Positions 10,854 through 20,130 of a stretch of DNA of 43,939 nt are shown one piece after another; the stretch's first letter is position 1, and each line of letters opens with the position of its first letter. The translations under genes and the position numbers were made by a program. The DNA is from Pelagibius sp. (lineage in GTDB: Bacteria; Pseudomonadota; Alphaproteobacteria; Kiloniellales; Kiloniellaceae): assembly GCF_028289705.1 (NCBI RefSeq), contig NZ_JANQOI010000185.1, positions 1 to 43,939 on the forward strand, given 5' to 3'. The notes beneath the pieces were generated by a model. That model was not told the origin of the DNA and did not search any database. It worked only from the letters and a program-made list of their open reading frames with translations.

Positions 10854-11552
10854 ATGAGGCATGGTCGGCAAGAGAGCAGGACGGGTCTGGCTGGCCGTTT
10901 GAGCGGGTGCCTTCTGGGCGCGGGCCTGCTGCTGCTGTCCTTGGGTTCCCCGGCGGCCGCCCATCCCCATGTCTGGATCGATTCCAAGACAACGCTCCTC
11001 TTCGACGCAGAGCAGCGCGTGGCGGCCTTGGAGATCGTGTGGCGCTTCGATGAGTTCTACAGCATCTATGCGATCGAGGGGCTGGACAAGAACGACGACG
11101 GCGTCCTGGAGCCGGCCGAGCTGCAGCCCCTGGCGAAGCTGAACGTGACCTCTCTGAAGGACTACCGCTACTTCACCTATGTTCGGGCGAATGGCCGGGA
11201 TACGGCTTATGGCGAGGTCGTCGACTACGGCTCGCGCTTCGAAGACGGCATTCTCAGCCTGCGTTTCGTGCTGCCCCTGAAAGAGCCCGTCGATCCCCGC
11301 CTCGCCCAGCTTTCCTTCACCAGCTTCGATCCCAGTTTCTACATCTCGATAGAGCCGCAGCCTGAGGCGCCGGTGGTCCTGTCGGGCGCTGTCCCGGAGG
11401 GCTGCAGGGTCCTGCTGGACAGGGGTGACGAGACCGAGTCCCTCAATCTTGCCGAATCCCTCTTCGTCGACGCGACGGCAGCCGACAGCATCGCCGCGGA
11501 GTTTGCCTCCCGCGCGGCGCTTGACTGCGCCACCTCCACGGGCATGCGATGA
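10854..11552 (+). CDS. DUF1007 family periplasmic protein, partner of NicO exporter
   Basis: A 232-residue exported protein. The signal peptide runs to about residue 36 (hydrophobic LLGAGLLLLSLGSPAAA, cleavage before HPHVW). The mature start HPHVWIDSKTTLLFD and the later NDDGVLEPAEL (EF-hand-like) and FDPSFYISIE segments match the DUF1007 family, which is commonly found beside RcnA/NicO-type nickel-cobalt transporters. The HPH at the new N-terminus is an obvious metal-binding candidate (inference). Its stop overlaps the next gene in an ATGA junction, so the two are translationally coupled. Confidence 0.85.
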   Translation: MRHGRQESRTGLAGRLSGCLLGAGLLLLSLGSPAAAHPHVWIDSKTTLLFDAEQRVAALEIVWRFDEFYSIYAIEGLDKNDDGVLEPAELQPLAKLNVTSLKDYRYFTYVRANGRDTAYGEVVDYGSRFEDGILSLRFVLPLKEPVDPRLAQLSFTSFDPSFYISIEPQPEAPVVLSGAVPEGCRVLLDRGDETESLNLAESLFVDATAADSIAAEFASRAALDCATSTGMR

Positions 11553-12580
11553 CAGCCGCATTCCCGCGGCCCGGCCGGGCTCTGCGGCTTGGGCTTGTCG
11601 TTGCGTCGCTGCTGTTGGGGGTCTGCCTGATCGCCGGGCCGGAGGCGCTGGCCCAGACCTCTTTGGTTCCGCCGCCGGACGCGGCAGCCGAGGAGGCGGC
11701 GCCGAGCGGTCCCTGGCGCTCTCTGCAGCTCTATGCCGCCCAGGTTCAGGAGGACCTGCGCCGGCGGCTGCCCGGCGCCTTTCGCATGCTCGAGGTCGAC
11801 GCGGTGGAGGGCGCGGCGCTGCTGGTCTTCCTGAGTTTTCTTTACGGTGTCTTTCATGCGGTCGGCCCCGGCCACGGGAAGATCGTGATCTCCACCTATC
11901 TGCTGGCCAACGAGAGCGCCGTGAAGCGCGGCATCCTGCTGGCCTTCCTGGCCGCACTGGTGCAGGGCCTGGTTGCGGTCGTTCTCGTCGGCGGCCTGAA
12001 GCTCGTCCTCGACGTGACCAATCGAACCGTCGATGCGGCCGCCGAGATCCTGGAAAGCGCCAGCTATGCCATGATCGCGCTGGTCGGCTGCTGGCTGCTC
12101 TGGTCGTTGCTGACCCGGACAGGGGCCCTGCTGGCCGGCAACTCGGCCGCAGCCGGTCCGGAGATCGGCCATGGCCACGCCGATTCGGAGAACCCGGCGT
12201 CCTGCGGCCACAACCACACGCTCGACCCCGCCCTGCTGTCCCGCGGCGGGCTCGGCGCGAAGGCTTGGGGCATTGTCGCCGCGGTCGGCCTGCGGCCCTG
12301 CCTGGGCGCCATCCTGGTTCTGGTCTACGCTACCTTTCACGGGCTCTTCCTGGTCGGCGTCGCGGCCACGGCGGCGATGTCCCTCGGCACTGCGGTCACG
12401 GTGTCGGCGCTGGCCGTGATGACGCTCTACTCGAAGCGCCTGGCGATTGCGGCTCTGGGCGGACGTAGCCGCTGGGTCGACCGCGCCTATCAGGTCCTCG
12501 GCTTTGCCGGCGCGCTCCTGCTGATCCTGCTCGGCGGCCTCCTGTTCTTCGGCTCACTGGGCGGCTCAAAACCCTTCTGA
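11549..12580 (+). CDS. NicO-family nickel/cobalt exporter (RcnA-like)
   Basis: A 343-residue inner-membrane protein of the nickel/cobalt transporter (NicO) family. It has a signal-like first helix, then membrane segments at about 88-105, 128-155, 168-190, 238-262, 265-293 and 312-335. The family signature FHAVGPGHGK is at residues 102-111, with a second conserved GLRPCLGAI at 247-255. A His-rich cytoplasmic loop (GHGHADSE...CGHNH, about 208-223) is typical of RcnA-like exporters and suggests divalent metal binding. The ATG overlaps the TGA of the DUF1007 gene. Export of Ni/Co is the family expectation; direction and metal are not provable here. Confidence 0.88.
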   Translation: MTAAFPRPGRALRLGLVVASLLLGVCLIAGPEALAQTSLVPPPDAAAEEAAPSGPWRSLQLYAAQVQEDLRRRLPGAFRMLEVDAVEGAALLVFLSFLYGVFHAVGPGHGKIVISTYLLANESAVKRGILLAFLAALVQGLVAVVLVGGLKLVLDVTNRTVDAAAEILESASYAMIALVGCWLLWSLLTRTGALLAGNSAAAGPEIGHGHADSENPASCGHNHTLDPALLSRGGLGAKAWGIVAAVGLRPCLGAILVLVYATFHGLFLVGVAATAAMSLGTAVTVSALAVMTLYSKRLAIAALGGRSRWVDRAYQVLGFAGALLLILLGGLLFFGSLGGSKPF

Positions 12581-12654: not shown

Positions 12655-12792
12655 GACCCTTCCCACGACCCGGCGTAGTGTCCTTCTCGACGGACATTGG
12701 TCCAAACAGCCATGAAGGCGACCTGCTGGACCGGGGAGACTTTTGTCAAACCGAAGGGGTTGGTGGACAAAAGGGGAAGGGAGAGCACCGTT

Positions 12793-13521
12793 ATGTCAGA
12801 AGTAAACACGCTATTGGTGGGACGTAACCGCCTGTTCCTGGAGGGGCTGAAGAGCCTCTTGAAGGGGAGCTCTTTCGAAGTCTGCGGCGAAGTGGACTGC
12901 GTGACGGCAATCGAAGACGAGGTTGCCGCTGCCGGGGAGCTCGATCTGATCCTCATCGAACTGCGCGGCGACATCTCGCTGCTGGTGGAGGATCTGCGCC
13001 GGTTGCAGGACGAGATGCCGGATACACCGGTTGTCGTGCTGACCGACGAACGGGACCCGCGCACCCTGGCCGCCTGCTTGAATGCCGGCGCCGATGCCTT
13101 TCTGCTGAAGGACATCTCGCTGGAGGCGCTGATCCACTCGCTGAAGCTGGCCATGATGGGCCAGAAGGTCATGCCGACCGATCTGGCAGCGGCCTTAATC
13201 AACGGCGCGGTGGGCGTTGCCGCCCTCGGCAACAAGCGCATCGAAGAGTACGGCCTGTCGGACCGCGAGCAGGAAATCCTGCGCTGCCTGGTCTATGGCG
13301 ATGCCAACAAGGTGATCGCCAACCGCCTCGACATCACCGAGGCGACGGTGAAGGTCCACATGAAAAGCCTGTTGCGCAAGATCAAGGCGGGTAACAGGAC
13401 GCAAGCCGCGATCTGGGCGCTGAACCACGGTTTGGCCCCGGGCTTGCCTCTGGGAGGTGGGGCCGATCCCATGTTTCCCGCTTCCAACGGGGCGCCGGTT
13501 CTCTCTCAGCTGACCGGATAA
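12793..13521 (+). CDS. LuxR/NarL-type regulator with atypical receiver
   Basis: A 242-residue transcription factor. The N-terminal receiver-like domain (5-120) lacks the paired acidic residues (VGRNRLF in their place), and the phospho-acceptor position is Glu (E56 in LILIELRGD), while the Lys of FLLKDIS is kept. The LuxR helix-turn-helix (about 165-225) is canonical: LSDREQEILRCL, NKVIANRLDITEATVKVHMKSLLRKI. Glu at the acceptor can mimic phosphorylation, so it may be active without a kinase (inference). ATG at 12793 is preceded by GGGAAGGGAG; the frame extends upstream to 12697 without support. Near the HfaB-type operon, its design recalls CsgD, the curli activator. Confidence 0.88.
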   Translation: MSEVNTLLVGRNRLFLEGLKSLLKGSSFEVCGEVDCVTAIEDEVAAAGELDLILIELRGDISLLVEDLRRLQDEMPDTPVVVLTDERDPRTLAACLNAGADAFLLKDISLEALIHSLKLAMMGQKVMPTDLAAALINGAVGVAALGNKRIEEYGLSDREQEILRCLVYGDANKVIANRLDITEATVKVHMKSLLRKIKAGNRTQAAIWALNHGLAPGLPLGGGADPMFPASNGAPVLSQLTG

Positions 13522-13773: not shown

Positions 13774-14346
13774 CTAACCGCCGACCTGTGCCGTCCAGGC
13801 ATCGATGGACCCGCCGCTGCCGGGATAGACGATGATCGCCCCCCGGCCGGAACCGGCGGTCACCATGTTGGTCCAGGATGCGATGGTGGCCGCGGTGCGC
13901 TGGCTGGTGAGAAAGCTCGGGGTCGAGGATCCGCCACTGCGCGGCGCGAAGAAGGGATTGAAGATCCCCGCACCGTCGACCGGGCTGCGCCGGAAGCTGC
14001 TGCCGCGCCCGGCAAAGCCGGGAAGGAAGGGGTTGGCCTGTGCGGTGACGAAGGCGTTGGATCCCGGGCCCTCGAAGACGTCGACCAGGGCACCGCTGGG
14101 CCCGCGCAGCAGATTGTCCGGCGTCAGGCCGAAGATTTCCTTTTGCAGGATCGCCTGCCGGCCCGCGAGGCTCATGCCCGCGCCGCCGCTGCCGCTGAAG
14201 GAGAAGGGCCGGTTGTTCCACTGGGCCTTGGCCTCCGGCACGGCGGTGGCCATTGCAAAGGCCAGGAGCAGGCCCGCCAGGCCAAGCTGCGCAAAGCGAC
14301 GGCCCTTCGGGCCGGATTGAGTCCAGGATTGAAAACGGAGCGCCAT
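13774..14346 (-). CDS. Secreted protein, possible fibre subunit related to the 17672 product
   Basis: A 190-residue exported protein with a signal peptide (hydrophobic LGLAGLLLAFAMATA, cleavage after AKA, about residue 41). The mature chain begins QWNNRPFSFSGSGGAGM and has few charged residues, many Gly, Ser and Phe, and no Cys. Its start follows the pattern Q-x3-RP-[FW]-x-F, then GG, Met and [RK]Q, also found in the product at 17672-18109. The ATG at 14346 follows GGGAG; the frame is open to 14400. It lies 159 bases downstream of, and on the same strand as, the second LuxR-type regulator. Family not recognised; role as a surface-fibre component is inferred from the neighbours. Confidence 0.7.
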   Translation of the reverse strand: MALRFQSWTQSGPKGRRFAQLGLAGLLLAFAMATAVPEAKAQWNNRPFSFSGSGGAGMSLAGRQAILQKEIFGLTPDNLLRGPSGALVDVFEGPGSNAFVTAQANPFLPGFAGRGSSFRRSPVDGAGIFNPFFAPRSGGSSTPSFLTSQRTAATIASWTNMVTAGSGRGAIIVYPGSGGSIDAWTAQVGG

Positions 14347-14505
14347 GTGATGACTCCCAAGGTGAGCGATGGAGCGCACCGTCGGGCGTCCGCGGCTCAC
14401 CGGTCCAGGAGCGAGCCTGCGGACTTCCGGGATGCGTAATCTATCACTTTTGGGGAATGGCGCCGGGAATCAATGTGCCGGAAGAGGTAATACCCCCATA
14501 TAGCC

Positions 14506-15258
14506 TCAGGACCAGCCGCCTGAGCCGTTTCTCGGGGTGCCGTTGGGGGTAGGCGCCGGCGGCTCGTCGTCGTCATCGGCGGCGTCTTGCCCGCGCAGGC
14601 TTTCGCGCAGCGGCAGCAGGGCCGTTGCCGCCAGCACGGCGGCCTCGGTGCGGTTGCGGCATTCCAGTTTGACCAGGATCGTGCGCACCAGCGATTTGAC
14701 CCTTGTCTCGCTTTCGCCGAGCCGCTCGGCGATCCCGCGGTTGCTCTCGCCGACCGCGAGCAGCGGCAGGATTGCCTGTTCGCTCTCGCTCAGGCGGCAG
14801 AGCATGTCGAGATGGCAGTAGGCGCCGGAACCGCCCTCACGCGGCGCCGCCATCACCGAGTAGCCCTCGGCCGCGAGGCTGAGGCTTTCCTCGAGGAAAT
14901 CGAGCCCGGCCTCCAGGAGGATCAATCCGTCGGCACGGGTGGCCAGGTCGCCGAGATAGGCGCATTTCGATTCGGGAACGGCCAGGAGGATGCGGGTGTT
15001 CTCTCCCGACCAGCGGTCGATCTGCTGGTCGAGACGGCCGAGCCGGCTGCCGTCCTCGGCCGCCAGGATCAGATAGTCGGCGTCGGGCTCGCCGCGCCCG
15101 TTGGCCGGAAAGATGCAGATGTCTCCGATTCGCGTGTTGGGGACGCGGCGCAGGGCCTCCAAAAGGGGCGCCGTATCGATCCCCGATGCCAACAACGCGC
15201 AGCGCCGGTCGCCGGGCTCTGCGCTGTGGTTCGGATCTTCAGCGGTGTGATCGAACAT
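14506..15258 (-). CDS. LuxR-type regulator with fully degenerate receiver (CsgD-like)
   Basis: A 250-residue transcription factor. The N-terminal 150 residues have a receiver-like alternation of strands and helices (CALLASGID, ADYLILAAEDG, RILLAVPES, DGLILLEAGLDF) but none of the catalytic residues: no acidic pair, no acceptor Asp, no conserved Lys. The C-terminal LuxR domain is clear: LSESEQAILPLLAVGESNRGIA, then ERLGESETRVKSLVRTILVKL. The tail is acidic and Pro/Gly-rich. The ATG at 15258 has GGAGG ten bases upstream; a GTG at 15330 is an alternative. It is divergent from the HfaB-type operon and upstream of the secreted protein at 13774-14346, as expected for their local regulator. Confidence 0.85.
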   Translation of the reverse strand: MFDHTAEDPNHSAEPGDRRCALLASGIDTAPLLEALRRVPNTRIGDICIFPANGRGEPDADYLILAAEDGSRLGRLDQQIDRWSGENTRILLAVPESKCAYLGDLATRADGLILLEAGLDFLEESLSLAAEGYSVMAAPREGGSGAYCHLDMLCRLSESEQAILPLLAVGESNRGIAERLGESETRVKSLVRTILVKLECRNRTEAAVLAATALLPLRESLRGQDAADDDDEPPAPTPNGTPRNGSGGWS

Positions 15259-15611
15259 CTTGGGACAACCTCCAGTCAGACAAGCATCGGTGCGATCGGC
15301 GCCGTTCCCAGGGATTCTGCGGATATTCACGCCTTCATATCGGGAATCCTAGCACGGGAAATCCTCACAATCTTTTGCGCAGGCATAGTAATACTTTGGT
15401 ATAGGGTATTAATACTCGAGTAGAAAAAGCCGAGATAGTTACCCAGTCTGATAAGTATTAGTGCGTTTTCATTTTTAAATACACGTTCGCTCACTTTATC
15501 ATTCAAATAGATCCCGTACCATCCCCGAGCATTGATCCGGCATCGCGAAGCAAGCACGCCGGGTCGCCAGAGACAGATCCCAGAGACAGATCGATGCATA
15601 GGGGATGGATC
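15259..15611. promoter_or_regulatory. AT-rich divergent control region of the HfaB-type operon
   Basis: 353 bases, strikingly AT-rich from about 15385 to 15510 compared with the genes around it. The heptamer TAATACT occurs at 15389-15395 and 15410-15416 and inverted (AGTATTA) at 15454-15460. The second copy lies in the perfect palindrome GTATTAATAC (15406-15415). AATCCTCACA at 15360-15369 repeats part of the Crp-like site at 12639. GGGTATTA at 15404-15411 also occurs, inverted, at 14488-14495 before the secreted protein gene. Confidence 0.45.
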
Positions 15612-16442
15612 ATGCGTGCAAGGGCTTGCGCCTTTATGGTCGCGGCCGGGATGGCACTGACGGCTTGCGCCGGCCCGCCGTTTCCGGATTCCGGTGTGCC
15701 GCCGGTCTTCAGCTTTCCGGTCACAAGCAACCAGACACCGTACAGCCAGTGCCTGAGCAGCCTGTCGCAGGCGCCGGGCAACAACCTGCCGGTCTTTTCC
15801 GTGGGCGAGGTCGCCGACAAGACGGGCCAGGTGAACTACGACGACAACGGCCATGCCCTGACCCAGGGCGTTTCCGAGATGGTCATCTCCGCGCTCTGGA
15901 AGACGCGCAAGGCAAGGCTGATCGAACGCCTCGACCTGCGCATTCCCCTGGCGGAAATGAAGCTCTCGGAGCAGGGCCGCCTCGGCCGTGGGCTGACGGA
16001 GTATCAGCTTCCGGCCAGCGACTTCATCGTCGTCGGCGCGCTGACGGAGCTGAACTACAACATCACCTCCGGCGGTGCCCGCCTCTTCGTCAACGGCATC
16101 GGCGGCGGCGGACGCACGGTGGTGATCAACGTCGCGCTGGACCTTCGTGTGGTCAACGCGCGCAACTTCTCGGTCGCCTATGCGACCTCCCTGCAGAAGC
16201 AGATCTACGGCTTCGAGGTCGAGGCCAATGTGTTCCGCTTCTTCGGCAACACCCTCATCGAATTTGACGCCGGCATGATCCGCAACGAGCCGTTGCAGCT
16301 CGGCGTCAGATCCGTCGTGGAGATGGGTGTCTACCTCCTCATGACGGACTTCCTAGGTCTTCCCGCTATCCAAGGCTGCGATCTCGTGGAGACCGACCAT
16401 TTCGCTGGATATCTGAAGGAGACAAACGATGAAAGCGAGTAA
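15612..16442 (+). CDS. CsgG/HfaB family outer-membrane secretion lipoprotein
   Basis: A 276-residue lipoprotein with lipobox ALTAC (Cys19). The body matches the CsgG/HfaB family along its length: VFSVGEVADKTGQVNYDDNG near the start, KARLIERLDLRIPLAEMKL, ASDFIVVGALTELNYNITSGGARL, INVALDLRVVN, FEVEANVFRFF, and NEPLQLGVRSVVEMGVYLL. CsgG forms the ungated outer-membrane pore that secretes curli subunits; HfaB does the same for the Caulobacter holdfast anchor. PVTSNQTPYSQCL after the lipid anchor is closer to HfaB. ATG 15612 follows AGGGGATGG; an in-frame ATG at 15594 is less likely because the lipobox would be too far in. It overlaps the next gene by 14 bases. Confidence 0.9.
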   Translation: MRARACAFMVAAGMALTACAGPPFPDSGVPPVFSFPVTSNQTPYSQCLSSLSQAPGNNLPVFSVGEVADKTGQVNYDDNGHALTQGVSEMVISALWKTRKARLIERLDLRIPLAEMKLSEQGRLGRGLTEYQLPASDFIVVGALTELNYNITSGGARLFVNGIGGGGRTVVINVALDLRVVNARNFSVAYATSLQKQIYGFEVEANVFRFFGNTLIEFDAGMIRNEPLQLGVRSVVEMGVYLLMTDFLGLPAIQGCDLVETDHFAGYLKETNDESE

Positions 16443-17574
16443 GTCCTTGTTGCTTTGCGGGGCCGCAGTCGCTGCGCTCGGCCTCGCGGTGTCGCCTGCT
16501 GCGGCCTTCGATGAGGTCGACTGGCACTGGGATCTGGAAATCCTCGAGCATGTCAACAAGACGGTGGATATCAACGTCGATATCGATCCGGAAGGTCTGA
16601 TCCTGCTTGAGGACCTGCAGATCTTCATCGGCGACGTGACGGCCGAGTCCTACGTGAACGGCGTCTACAACAACCAGCCGATGGAAGACGGCGGCATGGC
16701 CAGCGGGACCATCGACTTCACGGTCACGCTCGACGGCATGACCGACGATGAGACCGATCCCAGCACCGTCACCGGTACCGCGGATCTCGGCGGCGACCTC
16801 ATGGGCTCCACCAACGACGTGTCCGGCACCCTCGACGAGGGTGACGACCAGCTCGACGTAGTGATGGCCTTCGAGGACATCCCGGTGGAGAACATCGAGA
16901 TCCAGCCCGGCGGGTCCTTCGACGCCGTTACCGAGCTGCCCGAGGTGGTCAGCGCGGCAACTGCGGTGGGCAACAACGTCAGCATCGACAGCGACGTGAT
17001 GGTGGAGATCCACGAGGGTCAGTTCGTCTTCGGCGGCAGCAACTTCGGCGATGACGACGATCCCTTCCCGACGCCGGTTCCGATCGGTCCGGGCGGCGGG
17101 ATTGCCCTTGCCTCGCTGGAAGACGGCGAGACCTTCGGCGCCAACAACAACGTCTACCCTGAGGCCGCCGCGCTGCTGACCCTGGCCGCGCTGTTCAACC
17201 TCCTCGACCCGGCGGAGATCTCTGCCGTGTCGCAGGTGGACGACATCCTCAACGCCTCGGTCGACTCTGCCGCCACCGCGGTTGCCAACAACAAGTCGCT
17301 CAAGGTGGAGGCCAAGGTGCGGGACGACGCCGTGGTGATGGGTGACGTCACCCAGTTCGCCGTCGCCAACGTCTCGGCCCTGTCGCAGGTCGGCACCAAC
17401 TTCTGTGAGGACGAGTGCTTCGGCGCCCAGCCTTACGGCGTCCAGGTGAACAACTACACCAACCTCGGTCAGCTCGACCGTCCGCTGGTGTCGTCGGTCG
17501 CCACTGCCGTGGGCAACAACCTGTCCATCAGCGTCAGCACGCCGAATCCCGGCGGCGCGATCATCACGGACTGA
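16429..17574 (+). CDS. Secreted HfaD-like repeat protein, putative surface fibre/adhesin
   Basis: A 381-residue exported protein with signal peptide MKASKSLLLCGAAVAALGLA and cleavage near AAA-FDEV. It is very acidic in residues 27-220. A motif occurs three times, ATAV[GA]NN[VKL]S[IL], at 177-186, 282-291 and 358-367, each after a Val/Ser/Ala strand and spaced by 105 and 76 residues. Such ATA-x-GN repeats recall the Caulobacter holdfast protein HfaD and beta-solenoid adhesins. The two Cys of FCEDEC (326-330) may bond. AAGGAG lies before the ATG, and the gene overlaps the HfaB-type gene by 14 bases, so the pair is co-translated and this protein is the likely cargo (inference). Exact family not certain. 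Confidence 0.72.
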   Translation: MKASKSLLLCGAAVAALGLAVSPAAAFDEVDWHWDLEILEHVNKTVDINVDIDPEGLILLEDLQIFIGDVTAESYVNGVYNNQPMEDGGMASGTIDFTVTLDGMTDDETDPSTVTGTADLGGDLMGSTNDVSGTLDEGDDQLDVVMAFEDIPVENIEIQPGGSFDAVTELPEVVSAATAVGNNVSIDSDVMVEIHEGQFVFGGSNFGDDDDPFPTPVPIGPGGGIALASLEDGETFGANNNVYPEAAALLTLAALFNLLDPAEISAVSQVDDILNASVDSAATAVANNKSLKVEAKVRDDAVVMGDVTQFAVANVSALSQVGTNFCEDECFGAQPYGVQVNNYTNLGQLDRPLVSSVATAVGNNLSISVSTPNPGGAIITD

Positions 17575-17600
17575 TCATCACTCAGCCCACCAACCCCGGG

Positions 17601-17627
17601 GAGGGAGCAGAACACCTCTGCTCCCTC
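17601..17627. terminator. Intercistronic stem-loop in fibre operon
   Basis: A perfect 11-base-pair stem, GAGGGAGCAGA / TCTGCTCCCTC, closes on the 5-base loop ACACC between the two secreted-protein genes. There is no T-run, so an RNA-stabilising or partial-termination hairpin that sets subunit ratios is more likely than a full terminator. Confidence 0.6.
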
Positions 17628-17671
17628 TTCCCCGCCCCGGCGGGACCCGGTCCGGCCTCGAGGAGGTTGAC

Positions 17672-18109
17672 ATGAAACAGACAGTGATGCGCATTGCGGC
17701 GGGGGCTTCGAACCTCTTTGTCTATTCGCTCGTGACCATAGCCATGATCGGGCGCCTGGCCGGCGATGCCTCGGCGCAGATGTACGAGCGGCCCTGGGGC
17801 TTTGCCGCCCGCAGCGGCGGCAGCATGGCCATCTTCATGAAGCAGGTGGACGAGGGCATGCTCTCCTCCAGCAGCGGCAGCGGCCAGGCGGCAATTGCCG
17901 GCACCACGACCTATCTGGTCTGCGGCGGCGAAGGCTCCGCCGGTGCCCGCGGCAACTCTTCCTGCATCATCCTGAACAACTCCGACAGCGCGCTCAGCCT
18001 CGGCCAGGACGCCGTCGGCGACCAGACCGCGGAGAGCACGGTAACGCAGACCCAGAACAACGGCGCCGATGAGGTCAGCGAAATCCTCGAAGGCGACTCG
18101 ACCAACTGA
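17672..18109 (+). CDS. Small secreted protein, putative fibre subunit (HfaA-like role)
   Basis: A 145-residue exported protein. A long hydrophobic lead (to about residue 36) ends in ASA, giving a mature chain starting QMYERPWGFAARSGGSMAIFM. Residues 40-58 share the pattern RP-[FW]-x-F, GG, M, [RK]Q with the product at 13774-14346. The C-terminal half is rich in Ser, Gly, Asn and Gln (GQDAVGDQTAESTVTQTQNNG), reminiscent of amyloid-type subunits, with two Cys (84 and 98). GAGGAGG precedes the ATG. It is the last gene of the HfaB-type operon, followed by a strong terminator. Size and position match Caulobacter HfaA, but I cannot align it with HfaA, so the family may be new. Confidence 0.7.
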   Translation: MKQTVMRIAAGASNLFVYSLVTIAMIGRLAGDASAQMYERPWGFAARSGGSMAIFMKQVDEGMLSSSSGSGQAAIAGTTTYLVCGGEGSAGARGNSSCIILNNSDSALSLGQDAVGDQTAESTVTQTQNNGADEVSEILEGDSTN

Positions 18110-18166
18110 GACGACGGGATGGATCCCGCGATTTCTCGCGCGATACCAACCAAAGGCACAGAGCAG

Positions 18167-18196
18167 CGGCGGCCCCCGGCCGCCGTTTTGCTTTTT
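18167..18196 (+). terminator. Rho-independent terminator of the HfaB-type operon
   Basis: Stem CGGCGGCC / GGCCGCCG with loop CCC, followed by TTTTGCTTTTT. It lies 58 bases after the last stop of the operon. Confidence 0.88.
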
Positions 18197-18305: not shown

Positions 18306-19130
18306 TTAGAAGAAATGCCGCTGGGCAATTTTGGTGATCCGCTCCGCGAGCTTGACGAAGTTTTTGAGTGTTTCAACGACAGGCTCACCATCAACGACCT
18401 GTCCCTCGCCAAACGCTACCTCAAAAATGAACTGTGGCTCGGGTTTGGGTTGGCCTGGCTCGGGGGTGGGACAGGAAAACAGTACCGCGCCGTCTTGCAT
18501 CGGGAACTGCCTATCGGCGGGGCGGAGGAAGATTGGGCGTTCCTTGAGAAAGCTACGCATGGCTTCCCAGAGCTTGGTGATCTCCTCGGCCTCCCCCTTC
18601 GTTGGGACGTTGGAAGCAAGGTCGGGATTCACGGATCGGTGTGCAGCCCCTACAGGTATGATCGATCGGTGTTTGTCCAGAAGGTCGAGGGAGTGGAGCA
18701 TCCAGAGGGCTTCGTTCCCTCCTGGGTGTGGTTTGAGTCGCCTCGCGAACTTCATTGCTTTGGGGCTGGCGCCACGCATTCTTTCGTTGACCCTAGCCCC
18801 GATGTCCCCTGGGATTTTGGCGAAAGGGAAGTAAGCGGTTTTTGGATTTCCTCCGTTTGCGACAACCAATGCCGTGGCCAGCAAGTCAAGCGAGGAGCGT
18901 AAGTTGTGGATGATGTCGCCAATAATCGCGCTCCATCCAGCGGGAACGCATTCGATGATTTTGACCCGGAAGAGAATCTTGCCAGGCTCGCTACTGTTAT
19001 CTGCGATGATGCGATAGGGTTTGCGCCCGTGAAAGGCTTCGACCTCTACCCTCAAGTTGTTGAGGTGTGTTTGGGCACGTTCGATCTTCATCCATACCCC
19101 TTGGAGGGGATCTTGAGTTGGTTGCGACAC
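18306..19130 (-). CDS. Conserved hypothetical protein, orphan
   Basis: About 274 residues from the GTG at 19130 (VSQPTQDPLQGVWMKIERA), which has GAGGCG upstream; an ATG at 19091 (MKIERAQTHL) with AGGGG is the alternative. Visible blocks are KIERAQTHLNNLRVEVEAF, AGWSAIIGDIIHNLRSSLDLLATALV, FPFAKI, HSLDLLDKHR, and a C-terminal helix. The GD-x2-HNLRS-x-LDLLA helix recurs in uncharacterised proteins scattered through many bacteria, often in genomic islands; I know no function. No signal peptide or membrane helix. Base composition is less GC-rich than the surrounding operons, in keeping with acquisition. Confidence 0.7.
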   Translation of the reverse strand: MSQPTQDPLQGVWMKIERAQTHLNNLRVEVEAFHGRKPYRIIADNSSEPGKILFRVKIIECVPAGWSAIIGDIIHNLRSSLDLLATALVVANGGNPKTAYFPFAKIPGDIGARVNERMRGASPKAMKFARRLKPHPGGNEALWMLHSLDLLDKHRSIIPVGAAHRSVNPDLASNVPTKGEAEEITKLWEAMRSFLKERPIFLRPADRQFPMQDGAVLFSCPTPEPGQPKPEPQFIFEVAFGEGQVVDGEPVVETLKNFVKLAERITKIAQRHFF

Positions 19131-19302
19131 GATGAGCGCCTCTAACAAAAAGAAAAGGTCTGGTGACGAGAGATTTAAGGAAGTGGTGCGACACTTCCTG
19201 AACACCCCGCCGAAGCCGAATACGAAGAACAAATCAGTTGACAGGAAGAGCGGCCAGGACAAGCCTGACCGCTCAACCCGTGCAAATAAGTCGTGCTAGG
19301 AC

Positions 19303-19404
19303 CTACTTGCACTTACGGGGCGCACGGCGGGGATGCGAACGCACCCTCACCCTCTTTGGCCCCTTGGGCGGGGTCTTACACCCGCCGCAATTGCGCTTTG
19401 CCAT
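19303..19404 (-). CDS. 33-residue Arg/Lys-rich small protein
   Basis: A short frame with a near-ideal ribosome site: GAAGGAG six bases before the ATG. The product starts MAKRNCGGCKTPPKGPKR and ends PRRAPRKCK, with 14 Arg or Lys of 33 residues, and a CxxC pair plus a third Cys near the end. It may be a nucleic-acid-binding or zinc-ribbon-like peptide, but I recognise no family. It lies between the orphan gene and the transposase remnant. Confidence 0.5.
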   Translation of the reverse strand: MAKRNCGGCKTPPKGPKRVRVRSHPRRAPRKCK

Positions 19405-19620
19405 TGGAATCTCCTTCCGTTGGCAGGAGAGGTTGAGCCTCTCGCCCTGACGCACTCCATGCACGTCAACGGTAACCGCGATGGAAATGCCAGGCAGCGC
19501 AACTGCGTACACTGCCAAAAACGAGTCCGAGTCGGCTAGCCTTTCAACCGACGCTTGCTCCAATTGCGGGCGAGCGGGCGCAGGGTGATTTCCTTGAAGG
19601 TGAGCCGCTTGGTGACGTCC

Positions 19621-20130
19621 TTACCGAGCGTCAATCCGCCGATAGGTGAGGCGCTTACCCTCGATGCTCTGAATGGCTTTGGTGGTGCGCTCCATATCCT
19701 CAGTACCGAGGGCTGAGCGTTCGTTGTAGCGGAAGCCAAACTCCGCCAGGTGGCGCTTGAGGTGCTGTTCGCTGACGTGGTGATAGGTGCCGTTGATGCC
19801 GCGTTTGAGCAGCGAGAAGTAGCCTTCAATGGTGTTGGTGTGGGCATCGCCGCGAACGTACTCGTCAATGCGGTGGTTGACTGATTCGTGGCGGGCGAAC
19901 TCAGGGCCAAGAAGGCGGTACTGGCCCGCGTCGTCGCTCATGAGCGTTGAGGCGCGGTCAACCTGAGCAAACAGGATGGGGCGCAGGTTCTTAGCGCTGA
20001 CGCTCTTAACGTGGTAGGAGCGCACGCGGCCACCGCGCTCGACCAGGGTGAAGGCAGTCTCCTTGCCGGCGCTGCCGATGTTCTTCGGGTTGCGCTCGGG
20101 GACATGTTTAACTTCAATGAACTGCCGTCG
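19621..20130 (-). pseudogene. IS1595-type (ISXO2-like) transposase remnant
   Basis: The C-terminal half of an IS1595-family DDE transposase. It keeps FIEVKHVPERNPKN, the second catalytic Asp region (FAQVDRASTLMSDDAG), and the family end block HRIDEYVRGDAHTNTIEGY, followed by FSLLKRGINGTYHHVSEQHL and RHLAEFGFRYNERSA. The natural C-terminus KRLTYRRIDAR is intact. Upstream of about 20130 the frame loses similarity and meets a stop, so the N-terminal half, including the first catalytic Asp, is missing. It cannot transpose by itself. Confidence 0.85.

Follow-up and report, generated by a model that had tools for sequence, protein, structure and literature searches.

A CsgG/HfaB-type secretion operon of Pelagibius with cargo proteins that look like distant relatives of HfaD and HfaA

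A contig of 43,939 nucleotides from the marine bacterium Pelagibius sp. (NZ_JANQOI010000185.1, assembly GCF_028289705.1) is referred to hereafter as the window. The draft genome to which it belongs, as contig C79, comprises 193 contigs and 5.4 Mb. The window carries three consecutive genes, B, D and A, which encode a predicted outer-membrane pore and two secreted proteins with an apparent distant resemblance to the Hfa proteins of Caulobacter. An earlier note, made from the sequence alone, had described them as a CsgG/HfaB-type secretion operon with unfamiliar cargo. The three genes lie where it had placed them (Table 1). The last 14 bases of B also form the start of D, 97 bases separate D from A, and sequences resembling ribosome-binding sites precede both D (AAGGAG) and A (GAGGAGG). 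The terminator placed after A was also found, as a stem followed by a T run; between 15200 and 18300 there were eight terminator-like sites, compared with 1.7 in shuffled sequences. No promoter stood out in a search that returned one site against 0.6 expected.

Table 1. Genes and signals of the operon and neighbouring genes
Feature	Position	Strand	Evidence
B: HfaB-type CsgG-superfamily outer-membrane lipoprotein (predicted), 276 amino acids	15612..16442	+	Pfam, NCBIfam and PDB matches; lipobox cysteine
D: HfaD-like secreted acidic repeat protein, 381 amino acids	16429..17574	+	Profile match to HfaD-position proteins; repeats; position beside B
A: HfaA-like secreted protein, 145 amino acids	17672..18109	+	Profile match to HfaA; A-family hidden Markov model; conserved in loci
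Intrinsic-terminator-like stem, then T run	18165..18187	+	
E: small basic secreted protein	13774..14400	-	Family at relatives' loci; N-terminal motif test
LuxR-type regulator 2, divergent from B, without recognisable receiver	14506..15330	-	GerE 1.5e-10; alignment; position in relatives
LuxR-type regulator 1, receiver degenerate	12697..13521	+	GerE 3.4e-19, Response_reg 1e-9; alignment

B matched the Pfam family CsgG (PF03783) with an E-value of 1.5e-24 and 87 bits, against a gathering score of 20.8, and solved CsgG chains in the PDB with an E-value of 4.9e-18. HfaB was its best named family among the NCBIfam models (160.5 bits), ahead of CsgG, for which B scored 61.6 bits against a cut-off of 505. 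The lipobox cysteine, C19, was invariant in 18 of 18 rows of alignment A1 (window counted), and B was the sole CsgG-family match in the whole genome. The closest titled relatives of B came from a Rhodospirillales metagenome-assembled genome (MAG; 95%) and three Pelagibius genomes (93–94%). This agrees with the earlier description of the gene, and B is predicted to be an outer-membrane lipoprotein pore of the CsgG/HfaB type.

Conservation of the operon was then assessed. Of 58 relatives, the window's genome counted, 17 had a match to B, which was strong (E <1e-96) in 11; a D-family model, searched independently of B, found D in the same 11. In one of these 11 (G045), B and the D fragment lay on separate small contigs, so that their adjacency was not seen. 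Within the genus, five of eight genomes had both B and D and three had neither. Across the class, the HfaB model had matches in 39 of 385 genomes, with 19 over its cut-off. D, for which the best five candidates per genome were scored, matched in 10 of the 385 and adjoins B in nine of them; in the remaining one, G426, B is cut by the contig end so that just its last part is seen, immediately before D, and a gene for A comes next. Rows from the other listed genomes were already part of the D alignment, so that the main result of the D searches is that no D was found elsewhere, G426 being the new one.

A scan with the B alignment, restricted to one genome per species, returned 116 stretches, of which 77 encode a relative, in 76 loci; 74 of these had a readable B open reading frame (ORF). 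Pelagibius, Thalassospira, Fodinicurvata, Oceanibaculum, Magnetospirillum and Azospirillum were represented, together with genomes that we take to belong to the Rhizobiales and Rhodobacterales. Among the 74 loci, 66 had a recognisable D beside B and 71 had an A; this check did not refute conservation of the operon. The spacing of B and D in the 66 loci was an overlap in 48, at most 20 bases in 15 and more in three; overlaps are upper bounds, because ORF starts were taken mechanically. Locus members were found by iterated profiles, so that single assignments may be wrong, and the counts of D and A rest on position too. Little or no sequence follows B in L097 and L126, the A counted in L095 is a wrong-frame ORF of 98 amino acids, and the true A genes of L094 and L095 are embedded in longer, mechanically defined ORFs (seen in L022 and L023).

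Twelve loci were from Halomonadaceae (Cobetia, Halomonas, Vreelandella and Modicisalibacter), a family of the Gammaproteobacteria, and this occurrence suggests transfer of the operon between classes. The D proteins of these loci (L142, L143, L146–L148, L150–L154, L165 and L167) were mostly short; across relatives, D proteins from 219 residues upwards exist. One genome, G072 (L085–L087), has five B genes and six D genes; among them is a tandem array in which one D-A pair is without its own B, so that the system has expanded locally. In 14 of the 76 loci, inspection by eye revealed a secreted Sel1-repeat-like protein, mostly right after A (for example L122:7104-8069 and L130:7801-8751). It is a possible fourth component; none was seen in the window.

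The earlier note could not confidently align the cargo proteins with HfaA or HfaD, and neither D nor A had a Pfam or NCBIfam match up to an E-value of 1. Deep alignments did relate them, which makes the cargo less unfamiliar than had been supposed. With few rows, hhalign gave 31% for the D family (P381) against HfaD, 73% for the A family (P145) against HfaA and 8% for all A rows against HfaA; deeper alignments raised the D-HfaD and A-HfaA values to 85% and 88%. At that depth, the D profile aligned with six HfaD-position proteins over 120 columns (84.8%, score 47.8, best of 40 column shuffles 16.4), and the A profile aligned with five HfaA proteins (87.8%, score 43.0, best of 40 shuffles 13.9), with 42 columns after realignment. 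No shuffle scored as high in either comparison. The crossed pairs gave 13% (D-HfaA) and 1.5% (A-HfaD). Three of the five HfaA reference rows were scored by NCBIfam (L062, L070 and L073) and all three passed; three of the six HfaD-position rows were scored, and L062 alone passed, L064 and L073 being below the HfaD cut-off.

The A-family hidden Markov model (HMM), built with signal peptides and without rows longer than 210 amino acids, placed hfaA-position ORFs at ranks 1–8 among 1179 ORFs of 25 loci (E 7e-12 to 1.8e-4); it missed the curated HfaA of L062, one of seven. Conversely, among 3789 ORFs of loci with the order B-D-A, the HfaA HMM ranked A first (5.7e-6); the HfaD HMM ranked D first (6.6e-7) and matched A proteins too (6.7e-5). 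The A of L122 also aligned directly with the curated HfaA of L070 (E 7e-8, 50% over 42 residues); it is joined to the A of the window by profile, their pairwise similarity being weak (E 0.062). By profile comparison, homology to the Hfa proteins was found for B, D and A alike. D looks HfaD-like and A HfaA-like, and both proteins appear from their sequences to be distant relatives of holdfast anchor proteins. HfaA and HfaD depend on HfaB for targeting to the outer membrane in Caulobacter, according to excerpts of PMC6707917.

We favour, with some reserve, a holdfast-anchor-type (Hfa) secretion system with the order hfaB-hfaD-hfaA. Several results weigh against it. B lies below the HfaB cut-off of 300 bits; the curated HfaA model matched three of 72 A proteins (best E 6e-4) and the curated HfaD model one of 77 D proteins (E 0.0037), in neither case that of the window. 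The D-family HMM found no HfaD among the 1179 ORFs of the 25 loci, where its best match was an hfaA-position ORF (E 0.0069). The strict repeat of D, described below, occurs in just two of the six HfaD-position proteins, once in each. No fold match was obtained for D, and D was not recognised in eight of the 74 loci, six of which have A. Of the 71 loci with sufficient sequence, 28 had no LuxR-type partner that could be found, and E was not found in 34 of 74, so that neither is essential. Finally, the crossed profile pairs, though weak, also exceed all 40 shuffles. Part of the profile signal is therefore a repeat common to A, D, HfaA and HfaD. The canonical proteins share it themselves, as the HfaA and HfaD profiles give 70% with each other; D against A (A5-A6) gave 16%, with three of 40 shuffles higher. 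One could argue from the crossed pairs that the operon secretes a soluble or contact effector whose Hfa likeness is just one of shared beta-repeats or export signals, the more so as D and A diverge fast and are named by no curated model. The D-HfaD and A-HfaA pairings are, however, far stronger than the crossed ones, and the neighbourhood is that of hfa genes; we regard an effector as very improbable.

D, judged by eye to carry a signal peptide, belongs to an acidic family (median pI 4.05, n=87, where 4.05 is the floor of the method). In the window it contains VxSxATAVxNN three times, at offsets 172, 277 and 353 counted from 0. Among 87 D-family members, the strict pattern occurred in three copies in 53, two in 12, one in seven and none in 15, compared with 19 single and no double occurrences in 1740 shuffled proteins, and any occurrence in five of 799 other long ORFs. 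Repeats with variable-length linkers are, by analogy, a likeness to FapC of the Fap system, as excerpts of PMC12392863 describe it. Together with the degenerate-receiver regulators adjoining the operon and the several operon copies in one genome, they would fit an independent functional-amyloid system, in which D and A would build long matrix fibres of the curli or Fap kind and no polysaccharide would be anchored.

Structure prediction gave no evidence of an amyloid or a beta-solenoid, the folds for which the earlier note had proposed it as a check. A first AlphaFold2 model of D (21 sequences, mean predicted local distance difference test score, pLDDT, 58) had FapC as its top Foldseek match (E 0.011, probability 0.25). 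In a second model (77 sequences, pLDDT 74) this match vanished, and no PDB match was below E 2.9 and no viral-model match below 0.29; the idea of a FapC-like amyloid fold was set aside. The second model has paired strands at the repeats (57–80, 172–201, 262–294, 307–321, then 354–370). Compared with Fap, the export pore differs and no stable fold match was obtained for D. The genome has no match at cut-off to CsgF, curlin repeats or CsgE. We consider an independent amyloid system rather unlikely.

The mature A of the window, delimited by eye, starts with QMYERPWGF. A loose aromatic motif near the start was present in 80 of 86 A proteins, and a strict GN...Q..G.Q unit in 38 of 86. C84 and C98 are invariant in eight aligned rows of the window's A subtype, and a strict pair pattern fits 31 of the 86 proteins; the two cysteines may form a disulfide. 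A CsgF-like plug at the N-terminus was considered and rejected: 85 A N-termini scored 9.1 against six CsgF N-termini (four identified by the Pfam model and two, L030 and L031, by eye), a value reached by five of 60 column shuffles. Against 11 HfaA-type N-termini, two of 60 shuffles were as high as A, with outliers near 130, which makes this control noisy.

This lack of similarity to CsgF is one of several differences from curli, with which the operon shares a CsgG-superfamily pore and, alongside it, LuxR-type regulators with degenerate receivers. As the earlier note had stated for the stretch, CsgE and CsgF were not found, here in the whole genome: CsgF had no match at E 1e-5, and the best CsgE match (E 0.24) was below cut-off. 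The best match to curlin repeats in the genome had an E-value of 1.58. In excerpts of PMC3521004, csgE and csgF are often absent from alphaproteobacterial curli systems, and CsgG models also match paralogues. The constriction of Escherichia coli CsgG consists of Tyr51, Asn55 and Phe56 (PMC6957492, in part). The constriction-loop region has 12 residues in the B of the window, 12–15 in the commonest B-D-A versions listed and 10–12 in rows over the HfaB cut-off, compared with 16 in CsgG from L030 and 14 in a second CsgG-labelled row, three of the five such rows not being parseable. A genome of the same order, G029, has two separate curli-type loci (L030 and L031, each with CsgG and a CsgF-like protein recognised by eye); D was not found in it.

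Compared with HfaABD (NF037934, NF037935 and NF037936), the operon agrees, by profile comparison, in its three components; in both, a D gene follows that of a CsgG-type lipoprotein, and A is small and secreted. It differs in gene order, which is B-D-A in the window and A-B-D in Caulobacter, and all scores are below the curated cut-offs. D here has up to three copies of VxSxATAVGNN, E and LuxR-type regulators often accompany the B-D-A genes, and the taxa extend to the Halomonadaceae. A further genome of the same order, G034, contains an A-B-D-like locus in which the D position is occupied by a 1291-residue repeat protein (L029:1877-5752, minus strand).

The history of the gene orders was examined in trees of the pore. 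HfaB-type proteins, B included, split from four CsgG-labelled rows with support of 100/100; the labels of L030, L031 and L090 derive from a neighbouring CsgF and those of L089 and L088 were guessed, and the second tree omits the long-branched L088 and five redundant rows. The rows that exceed the HfaB cut-off grouped together (93/64; 97 in the first tree), apart from the B-D-A rows. There was an intermediate A-B-D group (100/99), and a node with 100/100 support united the A-B-D rows with two B-D-A rows, one from a Caulobacterales MAG and the other from a Sphingomonas. None of 200 bootstrap trees contained a branch that set B-D-A apart; a single B-D-A clade was not rejected by the approximately unbiased (AU) test (p-AU 0.283 with all B-D-A rows, 0.408 without L144 and L156). 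The tree suggests, without establishing it, that A-B-D arose out of B-D-A.

These groupings bear on whether the organism makes a true holdfast, with the complex tethering a polar polysaccharide adhesin as in Caulobacter. The resemblance of B, D and A to HfaB, HfaD and HfaA would agree with this, as would three Wza-type exporters in the genome, but such exporters are common and were not linked to the operon. The rows over the HfaB cut-off stand apart from the B-D-A rows in the tree. Moreover, G095 has a B-D-A locus as well as an A-B-D-type locus, whose HfaB scores 233.7 bits and is itself below cut-off, so that the two arrangements need not do one job. A true holdfast anchor in this organism appears improbable to us.

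Upstream of B lies the gene for E, whose mature part has about 149 amino acids and a pI of 11.2; its true start may be the ATG near 14346. E had only a sub-cut-off Pfam/NCBIfam match. The start of E, Q-x-x-x-x-P-aromatic-x-F and the stretch after it, is common to A: the N-termini of the two families scored 18.4 against each other, which none of 60 shuffles equalled. E showed no similarity to CsgF N-termini (52 of 60 shuffles as high), and against the 11 HfaA-type N-termini two of 60 shuffles were as high, again with outliers near 130. The E family was found in 40 of 74 loci, always on the strand opposite to B, upstream of it in 39 and downstream in L136. In the class, where the best nine candidates per genome were scored, E was present in seven of the 385 genomes, always at a B-D-A locus; all seven are seeds of the model.

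Both regulators are of the LuxR type. In regulator 1, aligned with the window's own hybrid-kinase receiver, a Glu occupies the phospho-Asp site and the acidic pair is absent; regulator 2 gave no receiver match by Pfam search or alignment. In their degenerate receivers the regulators resemble CsgD of curli. In 43 of the 71 loci, a LuxR-type gene is present in the 3.5 kb upstream.

On the 3' side of the terminator, the region 18306–20025 contains a 318-amino-acid ORF without a Pfam match and a piece of an IS1595/ISXO2-type transposase (19621–20025). Relatives L020–L023 carry other ORFs at this position, so that an insertion has apparently occurred beside the operon. On the 5' side, DUF1007 and NicO-type genes (10854–12580), which have similarly sized ORFs in their place in same-genus relatives, are probably unrelated to the operon.

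A working model for the holdfast-anchor-type system can be outlined. B, by homology, would be the outer-membrane pore and, by analogy with Caulobacter, D and A would be exported by it; a candidate signal for docking or export is the conserved beginning of mature A, xxPWxF with the residues that follow. The D repeats may form an acidic scaffold at the surface and nucleate the polymerisation of A, giving a stable multimer that stays attached there. This multimer might act as an anchor or short fibre that keeps cells in a biofilm, possibly through exopolysaccharide binding, and the flanking LuxR-type regulators with degenerate receivers might control the operon. The idea of a distinct fibre or attachment system put forward earlier is retained in part: a secretion operon stands, with attachment or a surface fibre as the best guess for its role, whereas a cargo unrelated to HfaA and HfaD does not. 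More speculatively, and we think doubtfully, B-D-A could represent an independent CsgG-type system for surface polymers, the third beside curli and the holdfast anchor, and one that is older and more widespread than the Caulobacter anchor. The latter would have been derived from B-D-A through reshuffling of genes and specialisation for holdfast tethering; E, which shares the N-terminal motif of A, would then dock at or cap the same pore.

To our knowledge, HfaA, HfaB and HfaD are known only from Caulobacter and related bacteria. The open-licence literature searched yielded no account of an hfaB-hfaD-hfaA operon. The presence of a CsgG-family gene alone does not signify curli, since this genome has one without curlin repeats, CsgF or CsgE at cut-off. 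The operon probably represents a widespread, little-studied attachment or surface-fibre system, not a wholly unknown one. The mechanism of holdfast tethering is described as still unclear in excerpts of PMC6707917, and relatives with the same three parts, such as those in Thalassospira, Cobetia and Halomonas, offer comparative material for holdfast anchoring, in the form of conserved positions, D proteins of reduced length and a mature A whose conserved beginning might act as an export or docking signal.

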